Source: Cytophagaceae bacterium
GTDB lineage: Bacteria > Bacteroidota > Bacteroidia > Cytophagales > Cytophagaceae
NCBI GenBank assembly: GCA_025454925.1
Contig: JALONM010000017.1
Location: forward strand, 1 to 52,752
Reading direction: 5' to 3'
Length of the DNA stretch: 52,752 nt
Shown here: positions 3,581 through 48,216 of the stretch, in pieces
Numbering within the stretch: position 1 is the stretch's first letter
Layout: every line of letters starts with the position of its first letter
The notes under the pieces: generated by a model
Seen by the model: only the letters and a program-made list of their open reading frames with translations
Told to the model about the DNA's origin: nothing
The model's database searches: none
Program-made: the position numbers and the translations under genes

Positions 3581-4825
3581 ATGCTAGCAGTTTTCATTTC
3601 CATTAAAAATTATTTCGTAGCAGACTGGGAAAAAAAAGAAGGCCCCTATGTATTCCCTTCGGTGAGTGCCATGGTTGTATCCACTATGGTTCTATTTATT
3701 TTTTTAGTCATCTATAACAGCTTCTACGCTATCTACTTTTCTAAAGGTGGATTTGATATCTACTATTTTGGCGAATGTGGGTTATTGGTGCTTGGGTTAT
3801 TTTTCATCAAATATACAGGCAAGAAAAAAACAGCTTCTTTCATTCTCATTTTGAGCGGTTACACCACGAACTTACTGGGCATACTATCGCATGGAGGACT
3901 CTTTTCCATAGACCTTTTCTGGTTGGTATTCACATCCACAGTAAGTTTTCTATTTAATGGAGTGGCCGCAGGCATGGTGATAAGCTTTGCCAATATCGCC
4001 GCTGTCATCTTCATTTATTACAACAACCATGGCAGTCCGGAAAATGGATTGTATGAGATGAATACATTTATCTCTCTGCAACTTTTATACATTGCATTGC
4101 TTACCTTCTTTGTAAAACATTTGATTCAATCCAATAAAGAAATCAAGAAAATGAACGAAGAGCGGCTGGAGGAGCTAACAACGCTCGTAGATGAAAAAAC
4201 CAGGGAAAATATGGGCATACGCAGTCAGGTAGTGCGCGATTTTCATGACCTGATGGGAAATAAACTGGCTACTATTTCTTCCCTTTCCCAGATGTTGTAT
4301 GTACGAGATGATTACAGTGAAGAAGAATTTGAAAAGCAACTTAAACATATCAATAAAATCAGTAAAGAAATTTATGATAGCACGAAAGATTTTATCTGGT
4401 CCTTACAACTTGACCAGAATAATCTGATGTACCTTTACAGCTATATAAAAGAATTTGCTGAAAAGCTATTCCAATTCAGTGCCATTGAATTTATCAGTGA
4501 ACCGATTGATGAAGCCAGTGAAAAAATTACTTTGAGTCAATACCAATGCAGCCAGTTGATGCTGATATTAAAAGAAGCGTTTACAAATGTATTGGTACAT
4601 TCGGAGGCGTCCAGCGTTGCGTTGTCCTTGCAGCGTAAACAATCCGAGTACTTAATTTGTATTGAGGATAATGGTAAAGGGTTTGAAGAAACTTCTTTAT
4701 CACGCATTAATGGCATCAAAAATATGAAAGCAAGGGCAGAAGCGCTTTCGGTAAAATTACAGATATCATCCAAAAGTCACCAGGGGACTAGCATTGTATT
4801 GTATATTCCTTCTCATCACCATTAA
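3581..4825 (+). CDS. membrane sensor histidine kinase (HisKA_3/NarL-type)
   Basis: The 414-residue protein has five or six membrane segments in residues 30-180, then a short coiled coil (about 183-215) and a HisKA_3 dimerisation domain. The phospho-acceptor is His222 in DFHDLMGNKLA. The HATPase_c domain has the N box at KEAFTNVLVHS (Asn336), G1 at EDNGKGFEE and G2 at GIKNMKARAEAL. It has no PAS or periplasmic sensor domain, so the stimulus is probably sensed in the membrane part. The response regulator starts 5 nt after its stop, so the two are co-transcribed partners. The start at 3581 fits the promoter only if the mRNA is leaderless; otherwise the next ATG (residue 31) is the alternative. 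Confidence 0.9.
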   Translation: MLAVFISIKNYFVADWEKKEGPYVFPSVSAMVVSTMVLFIFLVIYNSFYAIYFSKGGFDIYYFGECGLLVLGLFFIKYTGKKKTASFILILSGYTTNLLGILSHGGLFSIDLFWLVFTSTVSFLFNGVAAGMVISFANIAAVIFIYYNNHGSPENGLYEMNTFISLQLLYIALLTFFVKHLIQSNKEIKKMNEERLEELTTLVDEKTRENMGIRSQVVRDFHDLMGNKLATISSLSQMLYVRDDYSEEEFEKQLKHINKISKEIYDSTKDFIWSLQLDQNNLMYLYSYIKEFAEKLFQFSAIEFISEPIDEASEKITLSQYQCSQLMLILKEAFTNVLVHSEASSVALSLQRKQSEYLICIEDNGKGFEETSLSRINGIKNMKARAEALSVKLQISSKSHQGTSIVLYIPSHHH

Positions 4826-4830
4826 GAGGC

Positions 4831-5451
4831 ATGAAAAAAGTAGTCATCGTAGAAGATAATTTACAATTAAGTAATTCTCTGCAATTTGCTATTAGCTCTA
4901 CAGGCCGATACCAGGTGGTAGGTACATTTAATACTGGTGAAGAGACTTGCTCTGTTATTAAACAACTCATGCCGGATATCATCATTATGGATATTCAATT
5001 GAGTGGAAAAATGAATGGTATAGAATGCACACAGCGCATCAACAATCTATTTCCTAAGATTGACATACTCATGCTTACCGTTTTTGAAGATAATGATCAG
5101 GTATTTGATGCCTTGAAAGCAGGTGCCTCCGGATATATTACCAAAAATGCCTCCATGGAAGAAATAATTGAGGCTATGAATCAAGCCTTGCTGGGAGGTG
5201 CACCTATGAGTTTCAACATAGCCCGAATGGTATTAAAATCATTCAGCAAGAAATACGATTCTCCACTTTCAGACAAAGAGAATAAAGTATTGAATATTCT
5301 TGCTAATGGTGGCAGCTATAAAACAGCCGCCAATCAACTCAATCTTTCTGTTGATACCATCAAATACCATATTAAAAACATCTATGACAAACTCCACGTT
5401 TCGAACAAGGAGGACGCTATTGAGACGGCCCGCAAAAGAAGATGGATCTAA
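4831..5451 (+). CDS. NarL/FixJ-family response regulator
   Basis: The 206-residue regulator has an N-terminal receiver domain with acidic pair Glu8-Asp9, phosphorylated Asp54 (IIMDIQLSG), the switch Thr in MLTVF and Lys in ITKNAS. The C-terminal LuxR-type helix-turn-helix spans about residues 140-204 (LSDKENKVLNILANG and LSVDTIKYHIKNIYDKL). It is the evident partner of the HisKA_3 kinase just upstream, with an AAGAGG stretch as a weak ribosome site in the 5-nt gap. Targets are unknown; the convergent gene cluster downstream does not by itself identify them. Confidence 0.92.
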   Translation: MKKVVIVEDNLQLSNSLQFAISSTGRYQVVGTFNTGEETCSVIKQLMPDIIIMDIQLSGKMNGIECTQRINNLFPKIDILMLTVFEDNDQVFDALKAGASGYITKNASMEEIIEAMNQALLGGAPMSFNIARMVLKSFSKKYDSPLSDKENKVLNILANGGSYKTAANQLNLSVDTIKYHIKNIYDKLHVSNKEDAIETARKRRWI

Positions 5452-5505
5452 ACGAGTGGTTCAATTCCTCTCCCTCCCGTTGATGGCATTGCAAGCTCGG
5501 CCAAG

Positions 5506-7575
5506 CTACTTCACCAGGTAAATGTTTCCGGAAAGTACTTGCTCGTTTTTACCTTTTAGAATAAGCTGATAGCGGTAACTTCCACCCACTCTATTACCTC
5601 CATTCCAGGAATTATCGTATGCTGAATTTTCAAAAATCAACGTTCCCCAGCGATCAAATATTTTCAACTCCATGGAATATCCAGGCGGACAATTCACTTC
5701 AAAGAAATCATTTTCACCATCTCCATTGGCACTGACGAAATTATACACTTGCGTCTGGCACGTTTCATCTTCCAGCACCTCAAGTTTCCAAAGAGTGTCG
5801 GCTGCGAGAATTCCAGAGGATGCCGGAGCTGAAATGCGCAGGGTAATTGGCGATGTTCCCTGCACGGTAAGCATTGTATCTTGTAAGGTAGCTTCGCCGG
5901 AAAGCAAGACATACGTTTGTCTGTTGCCCGCACTGGAATAGGCCGTCAGGTTGATGTCTTTGGAATGGCAGGTCAGCGGAGGGATCACGGGAAGTTGAAT
6001 GTATTGATTGCTTAGCACCGGACTGCACACCATCGATACCGAAGAAGGATCGGATGCATCAAGGGCATAGGAAGTGCCTAATCGTCCATGTACTCCATCC
6101 CGGCTGCTGTATACTACCTGCCCATTGGTCTCATTCAATTTCCAATACCCAAGCAAGGAAGCTGGTGGTGAAGTAATAGCGTTGGATTGATTTTGAGAAA
6201 TTTCGAGTGCCGTCCGTTCTACATTCCAAAGTCGCAGCTCACTTATTTCTCCTTTGAAATGATTGGTGCCAATGGAATACCCGGCGTCATGTCCGATTCG
6301 CAGAGCGCCCGTGGAAGCAATGGAATTTCCAGGCGTTACCACTGATCTCGACGTCACCAATTCCCCATCTACGTAAAACCTCAAACTTGTGCCGTTATTA
6401 GTAAGCGCTACATGGTGACATTTATCATCTCTAAAGTCTGGACAATCGGAACAAGGATAATTTATTCCTTCTATATTAGCCCACAGCTTGCCGCTTTCCC
6501 AGGGAGCTGTTCCAGTGTGCACAAACAAAATTATGCCTGTGTTATGATCGGTCCGGTTTGAAAATAAGGCTGGATACAGCTGGGTATTGGAAGCACTTAC
6601 TTTTATCCTCGCTTCCACTGTAAATGCGCCGGTGCCAATAGAATTAAAGTTCGATGCTCCGGGTATTTCAATAAAATCGTCGACGCCATCCATCGATCGT
6701 CTGTAAGCATCATTATTTACCGGATCGTCCAGGGCAGTGCAGGAACTGAGCCATGCAGGTTCTGAAACATCTCCCGAAACAATATCCCCCAGGATTCCGG
6801 CACTTCCTCCGCTCAGCTGGCTGGCTATTGTCTGACCTGTTCCTTCTGAGCACTTCCAATATCCTATCAAAGAGGAAGGTGCAGGTATAACCAAGATGTT
6901 TTGTAAGGCTGCAATTTCGGTGGCACTTCTCGCCACATTCCATAGTCTTACCTCTCCGATTTCTCCATTAAAATGATTGGTGCCCAACGTATATGCTACA
7001 TCATGTCCAAGACGAATATTTCCGGTAGAAAAAATATTATCACCACCAGCATCTACAGGGCGATTGGTGACTTCCACTCCATCCACATAAAAAATGATAG
7101 AAGTTTCGGTTTTTACTACTGCGATGTGATGACAATTGTTATCTCTTAAATCCGGACAATTGGAGCATGGATAATTGTAGCCTTCCATGTTTAACCAAAT
7201 TTTGCCTCGTTGAAATGGCTCCGTCCCCGTGTGCAGAAAAATAACAACTCCAGAGGAATGACTGGTGCGGTTAGAAAATAATATGGGATACAATTCCGCA
7301 TTGGTGGAGCTTGCTTTTACACGCATTTCTATCGTAAAATTCCCAGTTCCTATGGCATTAAAATTTACCAGCCTGGGAATCTCAACATAGTCGTTGATAC
7401 CGTCAAAACGCAAACTAAAATTATCTGCAACAGCCAGAGGTGAAAAAGCAAAAACAAACAACCACCAAAGCTTAGTGAGCTTTACTAAAAGGGAATCTTT
7501 AATTCTTGCAATACTTAAAATTCGATCTAAATCATTCGCATGCACAACACGCCTGTTGCTAGCCATGGATATCAT
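5506..7575 (-). CDS. secreted tandem LamG-domain protein with T9SS type B sorting domain
   Basis: This 689-residue protein starts at one of two close ATGs (7575 or 7566), with an unusually long N-terminal tail before a hydrophobic signal (about residues 34-50, ending AVA). Two concanavalin-like LamG domains occupy about 55-250 and 297-500. They are close copies of each other: both contain a Y/F-VEIP or IEIP start, an NYPCS-CPD-RD-CHH segment, a FYVDG-V strand and LGTNHF or IGTNHF with GEI-E-RLWNV. Residues 604-689 form a CHU_C/gliding-type C-terminal domain (FVSANGDGENDFF, LKIFDRWG, NSWNGG), the type B T9SS signal. It is likely exported and bound at or released from the surface. The ligand is unknown, and no catalytic domain is present. 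Confidence 0.88.
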   Translation of the reverse strand: MISMASNRRVVHANDLDRILSIARIKDSLLVKLTKLWWLFVFAFSPLAVADNFSLRFDGINDYVEIPRLVNFNAIGTGNFTIEMRVKASSTNAELYPILFSNRTSHSSGVVIFLHTGTEPFQRGKIWLNMEGYNYPCSNCPDLRDNNCHHIAVVKTETSIIFYVDGVEVTNRPVDAGGDNIFSTGNIRLGHDVAYTLGTNHFNGEIGEVRLWNVARSATEIAALQNILVIPAPSSLIGYWKCSEGTGQTIASQLSGGSAGILGDIVSGDVSEPAWLSSCTALDDPVNNDAYRRSMDGVDDFIEIPGASNFNSIGTGAFTVEARIKVSASNTQLYPALFSNRTDHNTGIILFVHTGTAPWESGKLWANIEGINYPCSDCPDFRDDKCHHVALTNNGTSLRFYVDGELVTSRSVVTPGNSIASTGALRIGHDAGYSIGTNHFKGEISELRLWNVERTALEISQNQSNAITSPPASLLGYWKLNETNGQVVYSSRDGVHGRLGTSYALDASDPSSVSMVCSPVLSNQYIQLPVIPPLTCHSKDINLTAYSSAGNRQTYVLLSGEATLQDTMLTVQGTSPITLRISAPASSGILAADTLWKLEVLEDETCQTQVYNFVSANGDGENDFFEVNCPPGYSMELKIFDRWGTLIFENSAYDNSWNGGNRVGGSYRYQLILKGKNEQVLSGNIYLVK

Positions 7576-46989: not shown

Positions 46990-47768
46990 ACACAACTTTT
47001 GTTTTGTCCCATCAATAACGTGCAAGTAATGCTTCCTTGCCAGATTGAATGAGCAAAGTTGGGACGTGACTGGGTTAATCGAAAACCTGACTTAGTTTGA
47101 AAATGTGATCTTGCGCTTAAAGTGCGAAGAAAACTACAGTAAAGGCTGCTCTCTGCGCTGTATCGAACGGAAGCGGCAATATTGGAAGCATGCGTCCACC
47201 AGAAAAGACGATGTCTTGATCCTCCGGCAATGACATAGTCAATGCTTACCGTTGAATACATCCTACTTCCCCATATTCTATTCGGAGATTTACTCAAGAA
47301 TCACCCTACTGTATTCATGAAGGTAGGCTTGTTGAGCAGTACTTTAATGCAGTACCTGTGGTTCTGAATGCCGCCATTGACCAACCTTTTCGCGAAACAG
47401 TGATGCGTGTTGAAGAAGAAAGATGGAGCGAAGCGCAGCGATTATGTCGCTTCTGAAAAAAAATGTTGAAAATTTTTTTCAAGGTTCCAATCACAAGCAT
47501 ACGGAAGCGTTTATTGCCAAATCGAAATGAAATAAAACCGCTACATCCCAGCATTTACAAGGCATTTGAAAGTATGTAACTTTAATTCCGATTATCCGTT
47601 AAGGAAAGCGGATGCATACTTTTCAGGCTACAAGTGGTGTTCAGAGCATCTAAAATCAAAGAGGGGTGATAGCGAGAATTTGGAACTTATTGAAAAAAAT
47701 TCTATAATTGAAAGACTTTTAAAATTAAATTTTAACTAGTTCAAACTTAATTACAAAAGGAGGATCAC
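46990..47768. other. intergenic region with possible gene decay
   Basis: About 780 bp. One plus frame (47256-47579) reads as protein-like through one TGA (47454-47456): EGRLVEQYFNAVPVVLNAAI, then PNRNEIKPLHPSIYKAFESM. Another frame is protein-like near 47102-47230. There is no good start, so this may be a decayed gene or chance. The last 70 bp are AT-rich and lead to the strong ribosome binding site of the histone-like gene. Confidence 0.35.
47757..47763 (+). promoter_or_regulatory. perfect Shine-Dalgarno AAGGAGG
   Basis: AAGGAGG ends 5 nt before the ATG of the histone-like gene. No other start in the window has more than a weak purine match, as expected in Bacteroidota, so this site is exceptional. 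Confidence 0.8.
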
Positions 47769-48164
47769 ATGGCAACAGCAAAAAAGCCAACCAAAAAAGC
47801 AGCCGCTAAAAAACCTGCTGCTAAGAAAAAAGTAGCCGCTAAAAAAGCTGCTCCTAAAAAGAAAGTAGCTGCTAAGAAGCCTGCTGCTAAGAAAAAAGTA
47901 GCCGCTAAGAAAGCTGCTCCTAAAAAGAAAGTAGCTGCTAAGAAGCCTGCTGCTAAGAAAAAAGTAGCTGCTAAAAAAGCTGCTCCTAAGAAGAAAGTAG
48001 CTGCTAAGAAGCCTGCTGCTAAGAAAGCTGCTGCTAAGAAGCCTGCTGCTAAGAAAGCTGCTGCTAAGAAGCCTGCCGCTAAGAAGAAAGCTTCTCCTAA
48101 GAAGAAAGCCGCTGAATCTTCTAGCGAATCATCTTCTACCTTTGTAAGCTCTCTTCTTTCTTAA
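47769..48164 (+). CDS. histone H1-like Lys/Ala/Pro-rich DNA-binding protein
   Basis: The 131-residue protein is almost only Lys, Ala, Pro and Val. After 20 residues, a 22-residue unit (KVAAKKAAPKKKVAAKKPAA and KK) occurs three times at 21-86, then a 10-residue unit AAAKKPAAKK twice (87-106), then KASPKKKA and a short acidic-Ser tail (ESSSESSST). It resembles eukaryotic H1 tails and bacterial H1-like proteins such as Hc1 and AlgP, so nonspecific DNA or RNA binding and nucleoid compaction are likely. The 66-nt repeats (47829-48026) are prone to length change. The perfect Shine-Dalgarno upstream is unique in this window. A terminator follows at 48184. Confidence 0.92.
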   Translation: MATAKKPTKKAAAKKPAAKKKVAAKKAAPKKKVAAKKPAAKKKVAAKKAAPKKKVAAKKPAAKKKVAAKKAAPKKKVAAKKPAAKKAAAKKPAAKKAAAKKPAAKKKASPKKKAAESSSESSSTFVSSLLS

Positions 48165-48183: not shown

Positions 48184-48216
48184 AAAAAAACACGGGAAAA
48201 ATCCCGTGTTTTTTTT
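48184..48216 (+). terminator. intrinsic terminator
   Basis: AAAACACGGG pairs with CCCGTGTTTT around a 6-nt loop, extended by A and T runs (T-run to 48216). It ends the histone-like transcript 19 nt after its stop. Confidence 0.9.

Follow-up and report, generated by a model that had tools for sequence, protein, structure and literature searches.

The 52,752-nucleotide stretch of a Cytophagaceae genome analysed here (hereafter the window) raises the question of why a gene for a histone H1-like protein should begin behind a strong Shine-Dalgarno (SD) sequence in a bacterium that makes little use of such signals. An earlier note on this DNA had described AAGGAGG, a 5-nt spacer and ATG ahead of the gene, and this arrangement is exactly as described: on the forward strand, AAGGAGG occupies 47757-47763, the spacer ATCAC lies at 47764-47768 and the ATG begins at 47769. 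AAGGAGG forms the end of AAAAGGAGG (47755-47763), within which the eight bases of AAAGGAGG (47756-47763) are complementary to 16S CCUCCUUU. The same eight bases are found in two related genomes, G003 and G008, while the spacer is ATCAC in the window genome (G000) and G008 and AACAC in G003. The gene itself (47769-48164, stop included, forward strand) encodes 131 amino acids, of which 50 are Lys and 44 are Ala, giving a pI of 11.2 and a net charge of +48, with a Ser-rich C-terminus. PF07382 (HC2) matches this protein at E 1.2e-7 and 32.5 bits, short of its gathering cut-off of 40 bits, and scores 25.2 bits with the G003 orthologue, while the G008 orthologue has no match at E 0.01. NF038053, with which the window and G008 proteins were scanned, gives E 1e-12 and 48.8 bits for the former (cut-off 80 bits) and 22.0 bits for the latter, and the best NCBIfam model is hist_H1_lk_Burk. 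By sequence, the protein therefore resembles Hc2 and the Burkholderiales H1-like proteins, below every curated cut-off.

SD usage in the window genome was surveyed at 386 ORF starts in 533 kb, made up of the window (41 ORFs) and 24 stretches of 20 kb (345 ORFs). Start errors are likely in this survey because the leftmost ATG was taken for each ORF of at least 100 amino acids. AGGAGG or AAGGAG was found at -20 to -4 in one of the 41 window ORFs, the H1-like gene, and in none of the 345 elsewhere, as against one of 386 mock windows, which upholds the claim that the other starts lack such a match. Looser SD 5-mers precede 11 of the 386 starts and occur in 10 of 386 mock windows, and the mean pairing energy with the 16S tail is -2.65 at starts, compared with -3.36 and -2.79 in mock windows at -60 to -42 and -40 to -22, respectively. 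The H1-like start ranks second of the 386 by duplex energy, behind L384 (-13.2, gapped). As 6-mers, 5-mers and mean pairing energies are all at mock level, SDs are not in general use in this genome; across the rest of the sampled starts their use is near zero. This agrees with the 0.1-2% given in excerpts of PMC10783764 for three example Cytophagia from a group in which SDs are scarce and CCUCC is conserved.

Within the window, AAGGAGG as such is no more frequent than expected, with 5 copies against 5.7. Across the 4.52-Mb genome, 70 places fit AAGGAGG-N3-9-ATG, compared with 134 for the reversed pattern. After the 49 places that open fewer than 40 codons were left out of individual inspection, reading identified plausible starts at 8 of the 70, including the H1-like gene. 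With one of 386 surveyed starts carrying a 6-mer, strong SDs are not common in this genome; had they been common, the idea would have been refuted on the terms set by the earlier note. The other seven plausible starts belong to a 4Fe-4S ferredoxin-like protein, MoeA and five more; for five of the eight proteins, the first 60 residues matched no Pfam family. Two of the eight SDs, those of MoeA and L222, are contained in the 3' end of a preceding ORF, and that of L029 becomes part of its own ORF when translation is taken to begin at an ATG further upstream. AAGGAGG also precedes the small ORFs L002 (the 4Fe-4S protein, 115 aa), L239 (97 aa) and L029 (68 aa), none of which was recovered by BLASTP against the AAGGAGG sites of G003 and G008. 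The pattern overlooks SDs such as CAGGAGGTGA of G003 rpsR.

The same inspection of the related genomes gave 28 AAGGAGG-N4-8-ATG sites in G003 (99% complete), 10 of them opening at least 45 codons, among which the H1-like gene was in our judgement the only plausible start. In G008 (69% complete) there are 44 such sites, 15 opening at least 45 codons; here, besides the H1-like gene, L321, L323 and a cluster on contig C658 were judged plausible starts. BLASTP among the AAGGAGG lists of the three genomes returned two shared pairs, L221/L303 and L307/L330, both within longer ORFs, which leaves the H1-like gene as the only shared site judged to be a start. BLASTP does not return the H1-like gene itself, whose product is low in complexity. 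The C658 cluster (4000-6500, L338) packs five AAGGAGG-N4-8-ATG sites with small ORFs into 1.2 kb and looks like a mobile element that has retained SDs in an SD-scarce host.

Orthologues were sought by a protein search over 59 genomes, which matched 13 (both counts including the window genome), followed by an SD-blind pattern over 19 genomes of the family. The H1-like gene was found in 3 of these 19, G000, G003 and G008, which represent three genera; a fourth pattern match, in G017, is an unrelated protein. The remaining protein-search loci that could be read encode either the tail of topoisomerase I or a different KA-rich protein. Seven of them (L036-L039, L042, L045 and L046) are KA-rich with other N-termini and no SD and were treated as non-orthologous, while L047 and L049 were left out as no KA-rich ORF was read there. 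At L035, L041, L043, L044 and L048 (G016, G053, G001, G010 and G006), the search had matched the KA-rich C-terminal tail of DNA topoisomerase I, with Pfam Topoisom_bac detected in 5/5. G000, G003 and G008 (at 69% completeness) each have a single protein-search match, the stand-alone H1-like gene, so the stand-alone gene and the KA-rich topoisomerase tail are possibly complementary in distribution. A MATAKK pattern, blind to orthologues with a different N-terminus, matched in 27 of 390 genomes of the order and revealed no KA-rich copy beyond these three. Across the phylum, AAAGGAGG followed by MAx0-3KK was matched in 42 of 395 genomes; among the 30 loci read (L347-L376), one is the window gene and the other 29 include nothing H1-like, while the remaining matches, some of them MAKK, may include H1-like genes. 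Nineteen of the loci encode what we take to be an FKBP-like protein, outside the class.

None of the three orthologues found lacks the SD; orthologues without it were the second circumstance that, according to the earlier note, would have refuted its proposal. All begin AAAGGAGGA(T/A)CAC-ATGGCAACAGCAAAAAAGCC, with AAAGGAGG unchanged at identical spacing, and 33 of 34 columns are identical from -14 to +20. The perfect runs of at least six columns in the three-way alignment are ATTTGGAACTTA (12/12), ATTGAA (6/6), AAAAGGAGGA and CACATGGCAACAGCAAAAAAGCC; the first two are the promoter-like boxes, the third is the SD and the fourth the start. In the SD block (-15 to -1), 13/15 columns are identical, compared with 6/38 above the promoter (Fisher p 2.5e-6). 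The contrast with the AT-rich leader (-45 to -16; 12/30 columns identical, or 12/20 with gapped columns dropped) is weak, because there are three sequences and the outcome depends on gap counting: p is 0.004 or 0.014 with gaps counted as differences, and 0.13 or 0.17, not significant, with gapped columns dropped. Codons are identical in 5/6 early columns with identical amino acids, compared with 18/54 later ones (p 0.027), and other constraints, such as A-rich early codons, may account for part of the conservation at the start.

The promoter-like boxes, kept in all three genera, are a -33-like TTTG (47679-47682) and, after a 20-nt spacer, a -7-like TATAATTG (47703-47710), both on the forward strand. 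They were judged against TTTG/TAnnTTTG, which we take to be the consensus; the -7 box is one mismatch away from it, and an exact search for this consensus did not return the site at 47679-47710. Transcription would start near 47715-47718, giving a leader of about 50 nt that includes an AT-rich portion at 47715-47754. Leader folding is no better than that of shuffled sequences in any of the three orthologues (z 0.14 in the window, -0.63 and 0.31), so secondary structure was rejected as a factor. Downstream on the same strand, ACACGGGAAAAATCCCGTGT followed by a T run (48190-48216) forms a predicted intrinsic terminator with a fold of -19.3 kcal/mol (z -4.8), and inspection revealed a hairpin and T run 3' of the G003 and G008 genes as well. 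With a promoter-like pair, a short leader and its own terminator, the H1-like gene looks like a single-gene unit. An upstream LysA-like decarboxylase is common to G003 and G008 (61% identical, with Pfam decarboxylase domains in G008), and a downstream secreted protein is common to G008 and the window genome (31% identical). In the window, the position of the LysA-like gene is taken by about 650 bases (47025-47678), which represent a rearrangement just above the H1-like promoter; two minus-strand ORFs tested there had no Pfam family match.

The 16S tail used for pairing, GGCTGGATCACCTCCTTTCT, was taken from G011, a member of the same family, as the 16S of the window genome is truncated at a contig end; AAAGGAGG complements eight contiguous bases of it. 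Searches for the tail matched one of 19 family genomes, even though two of the others, G005 and G012, are single contigs: neither has a GGCTGGANCACCTCCTTT match, although a 16S must exist, so the 3' end is masked or different. ViennaRNA duplex energies, which allow bulges and are distinct from the free_scan values of PMC9976891, are -13.0 kcal/mol for the window H1-like start and -12.2 and -13.0 kcal/mol for the other two orthologues. The corresponding values for rpsR are -10.3 in the window genome and -17.6 in G003, the latter stronger than for the H1-like gene, while rpsU of the window genome reaches -2.3 kcal/mol.

The earlier note had drawn a parallel with Flavobacterium johnsoniae, in which the bS21 gene rpsU carries a strong SD read by ribosomes that lack bS21, and had predicted a small class of SD genes including rpsU. 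As regards rpsU, that prediction failed in this family: none of 18 rpsU starts has even GGAGG. Of the 20 rpsU loci, this count omits the fragment L193 and also L192, an additional G005 copy that was read separately and has no SD either. G005 thus carries two bS21 genes (L176 and L192), neither with an SD. As rpsU has no SD, the published bS21 autoregulation is absent in this family. The proposed link to bS21 fared better in its other part, since Tyr54, the residue that occludes the anti-SD and the sole pocket residue compared, is kept in 18/18 bS21 read, which suggests that anti-SD occlusion probably holds in the family. bS18 forms another wall of the anti-SD pocket, and its gene, rpsR, is preceded by AGGAGG in 11/18 family genomes, GGAGG only in 3/18 and neither in 4/18; these sites sit at the coding end of rpsF, so they may be coding. 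According to excerpts of PMC9976891, Tyr54 of F. johnsoniae bS21 stacks on A1534, and Cytophagales have SDs on rpsU and/or rpsR, which the pattern in this family fits.

Taken together, we lean towards the H1-like site being a real, functional SD kept by selection in an SD-scarce Bacteroidota family. AAAGGAGG would pair in the cell with CCUCCUUU of the 16S and recruit ribosomes to a short mRNA that carries one gene, for an H1/Hc2-like nucleoid protein. If normal ribosomes hide the 16S tail against bS21, bS18 and bS6, as is most likely, this mRNA would, by analogy with F. johnsoniae, be best read by 30S subunits that leave the tail exposed because bS18/bS21 is missing or has yet to bind, and would be grouped with rpsR and not with rpsU; output of the histone-like protein would then follow the state of ribosome assembly. 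That H1-like translation depends on ribosome composition is nevertheless a tentative proposal. Within it, bS18 appears a more likely sensor than bS21, because in this family rpsU has no SD and rpsR often has one. Somewhat more speculative still is the fullest version, in which the histone-like gene, and not rpsU, is the family's conserved intergenic strong-SD gene, its mRNA is preferred by 30S subunits whose anti-SD is exposed for want of bS18 or bS21, and coating of the chromosome is set by ribosome assembly state. Several points weaken the main reading: there are only three orthologues, the helix of 8 bp is shorter than the 9-13 bp reported for rpsU SDs in excerpts of PMC9976891, rpsU has no SD, about seven other AAGGAGG starts in the window genome are plausible, and G003 rpsR and L384 pair more strongly.

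A chance match would be in keeping with the chance frequency of AAGGAGG in the window and with the one mock window that has a 6-mer, and a single site could indeed be accidental; its presence at identical spacing in 3/3 orthologues from three genera makes chance highly improbable. The main rivals of the favoured reading are a plain strength signal and a relic of horizontal transfer. Ordinary ribosomes of the family might simply use an 8-bp SD on a gene that needs high output, with no role for ribosome composition, a less probable but serious possibility. The promoter-like boxes, unstructured leader and terminator would suit such a gene, as would the mixed functions of the genes at plausible AAGGAGG starts. 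Other abundant proteins might then be expected to have SDs, yet the 6-mer is missing from all 345 sampled starts outside the window, and in F. johnsoniae, according to excerpts of PMC9976891, a strong SD gives somewhat lower output in the wild type and higher output when bS21 is mutated or depleted.

It is unlikely, though not negligibly so, that the gene arrived from an SD-using bacterium together with a ribosome-binding site that now has little effect and is merely retained. Genes with AAGGAGG and a MATAKK start are common in Burkholderiales: AAGGAGG-N4-7-ATGGCNACNGCNAARAAR occurs in at least 118 stretches of public genomes, in a scan that required the SD. Among the 80 loci listed, a KA-rich protein starts at 60 and a C-terminal ...MFEMTKL... 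domain, presumably SWIB, is present at 53, and the titles are mostly Burkholderiales (Oxalobacteraceae), with no Bacteroidota. The best NCBIfam model points the same way, but the ...MFEMTKL... C-terminal domain is absent from the window protein. The Bacteroidota-like promoter and shared flanks, with the LysA-like gene and the secreted protein each common to two genera, argue for long residence; together with the unchanged AAAGGAGG in all three genera, they favour an SD that has been maintained since then because it is used.

A functional SD on the H1-like gene would differ from what has been described. Excerpts of PMC9976891 limit SD control in Flavobacteriales to rpsU and place SDs on ribosomal genes in other Bacteroidia orders; a non-ribosomal strong-SD gene kept in three genera would point to targets other than ribosomal genes for ribosomes whose anti-SD is exposed, and the H1-like gene would offer a natural reporter of this. 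Retention of the SD in three genera also suggests that production of the H1-like protein may be controlled unusually. Literature searches pairing SD or Cytophagales/bS21 topics with histone H1-like proteins or the nucleoid returned no paper on an SD-bearing H1-like gene. The main texts of PMC9976891, PMC6847099 and PMC10783764 do not contain the word "histone"; the Jha 2021 survey may list this gene. As a protein, the product is like chlamydial Hc2 and the Burkholderiales H1-like proteins (PF07382, NF038052 and NF038053) in being Lys/Ala-rich, repeated and basic, and unlike them in scoring below all curated cut-offs, in its Ser-rich C-terminus and in its SD-scarce lineage.

The closest parallel in gene control, as described in excerpts of McNutt 2023 (PMC9976891), is F. 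johnsoniae rpsU, likewise a gene transcribed alone, with a short leader and a strong SD, in a Bacteroidia genome where SDs are scarce. The H1-like gene shares the strong, properly spaced SD (8 bp, spacer 5, -13.0 kcal/mol with the G011 tail), and its family shares the occluding Tyr54 of bS21 (18/18; no other pocket residue was compared). It departs from that gene in being non-ribosomal, in pairing over 8 contiguous bp instead of an extended 9-13 bp, and in coming from a genome and family whose own rpsU has no SD (-2.3 kcal/mol; GGAGG in 0/18). The other counterpart is rpsR, for which excerpts of PMC9976891, citing Jha 2021, report SDs in Bacteroidales, Cytophagales and Sphingobacteriales. AGGAGG precedes rpsR in 11/18 genomes of this family, and the SD in the window genome is strong and non-extended. 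The two differ in setting: the rpsR site lies in the coding end of rpsF within an operon, whereas the SD of the H1-like gene lies in an intergenic leader with promoter-like boxes of its own.
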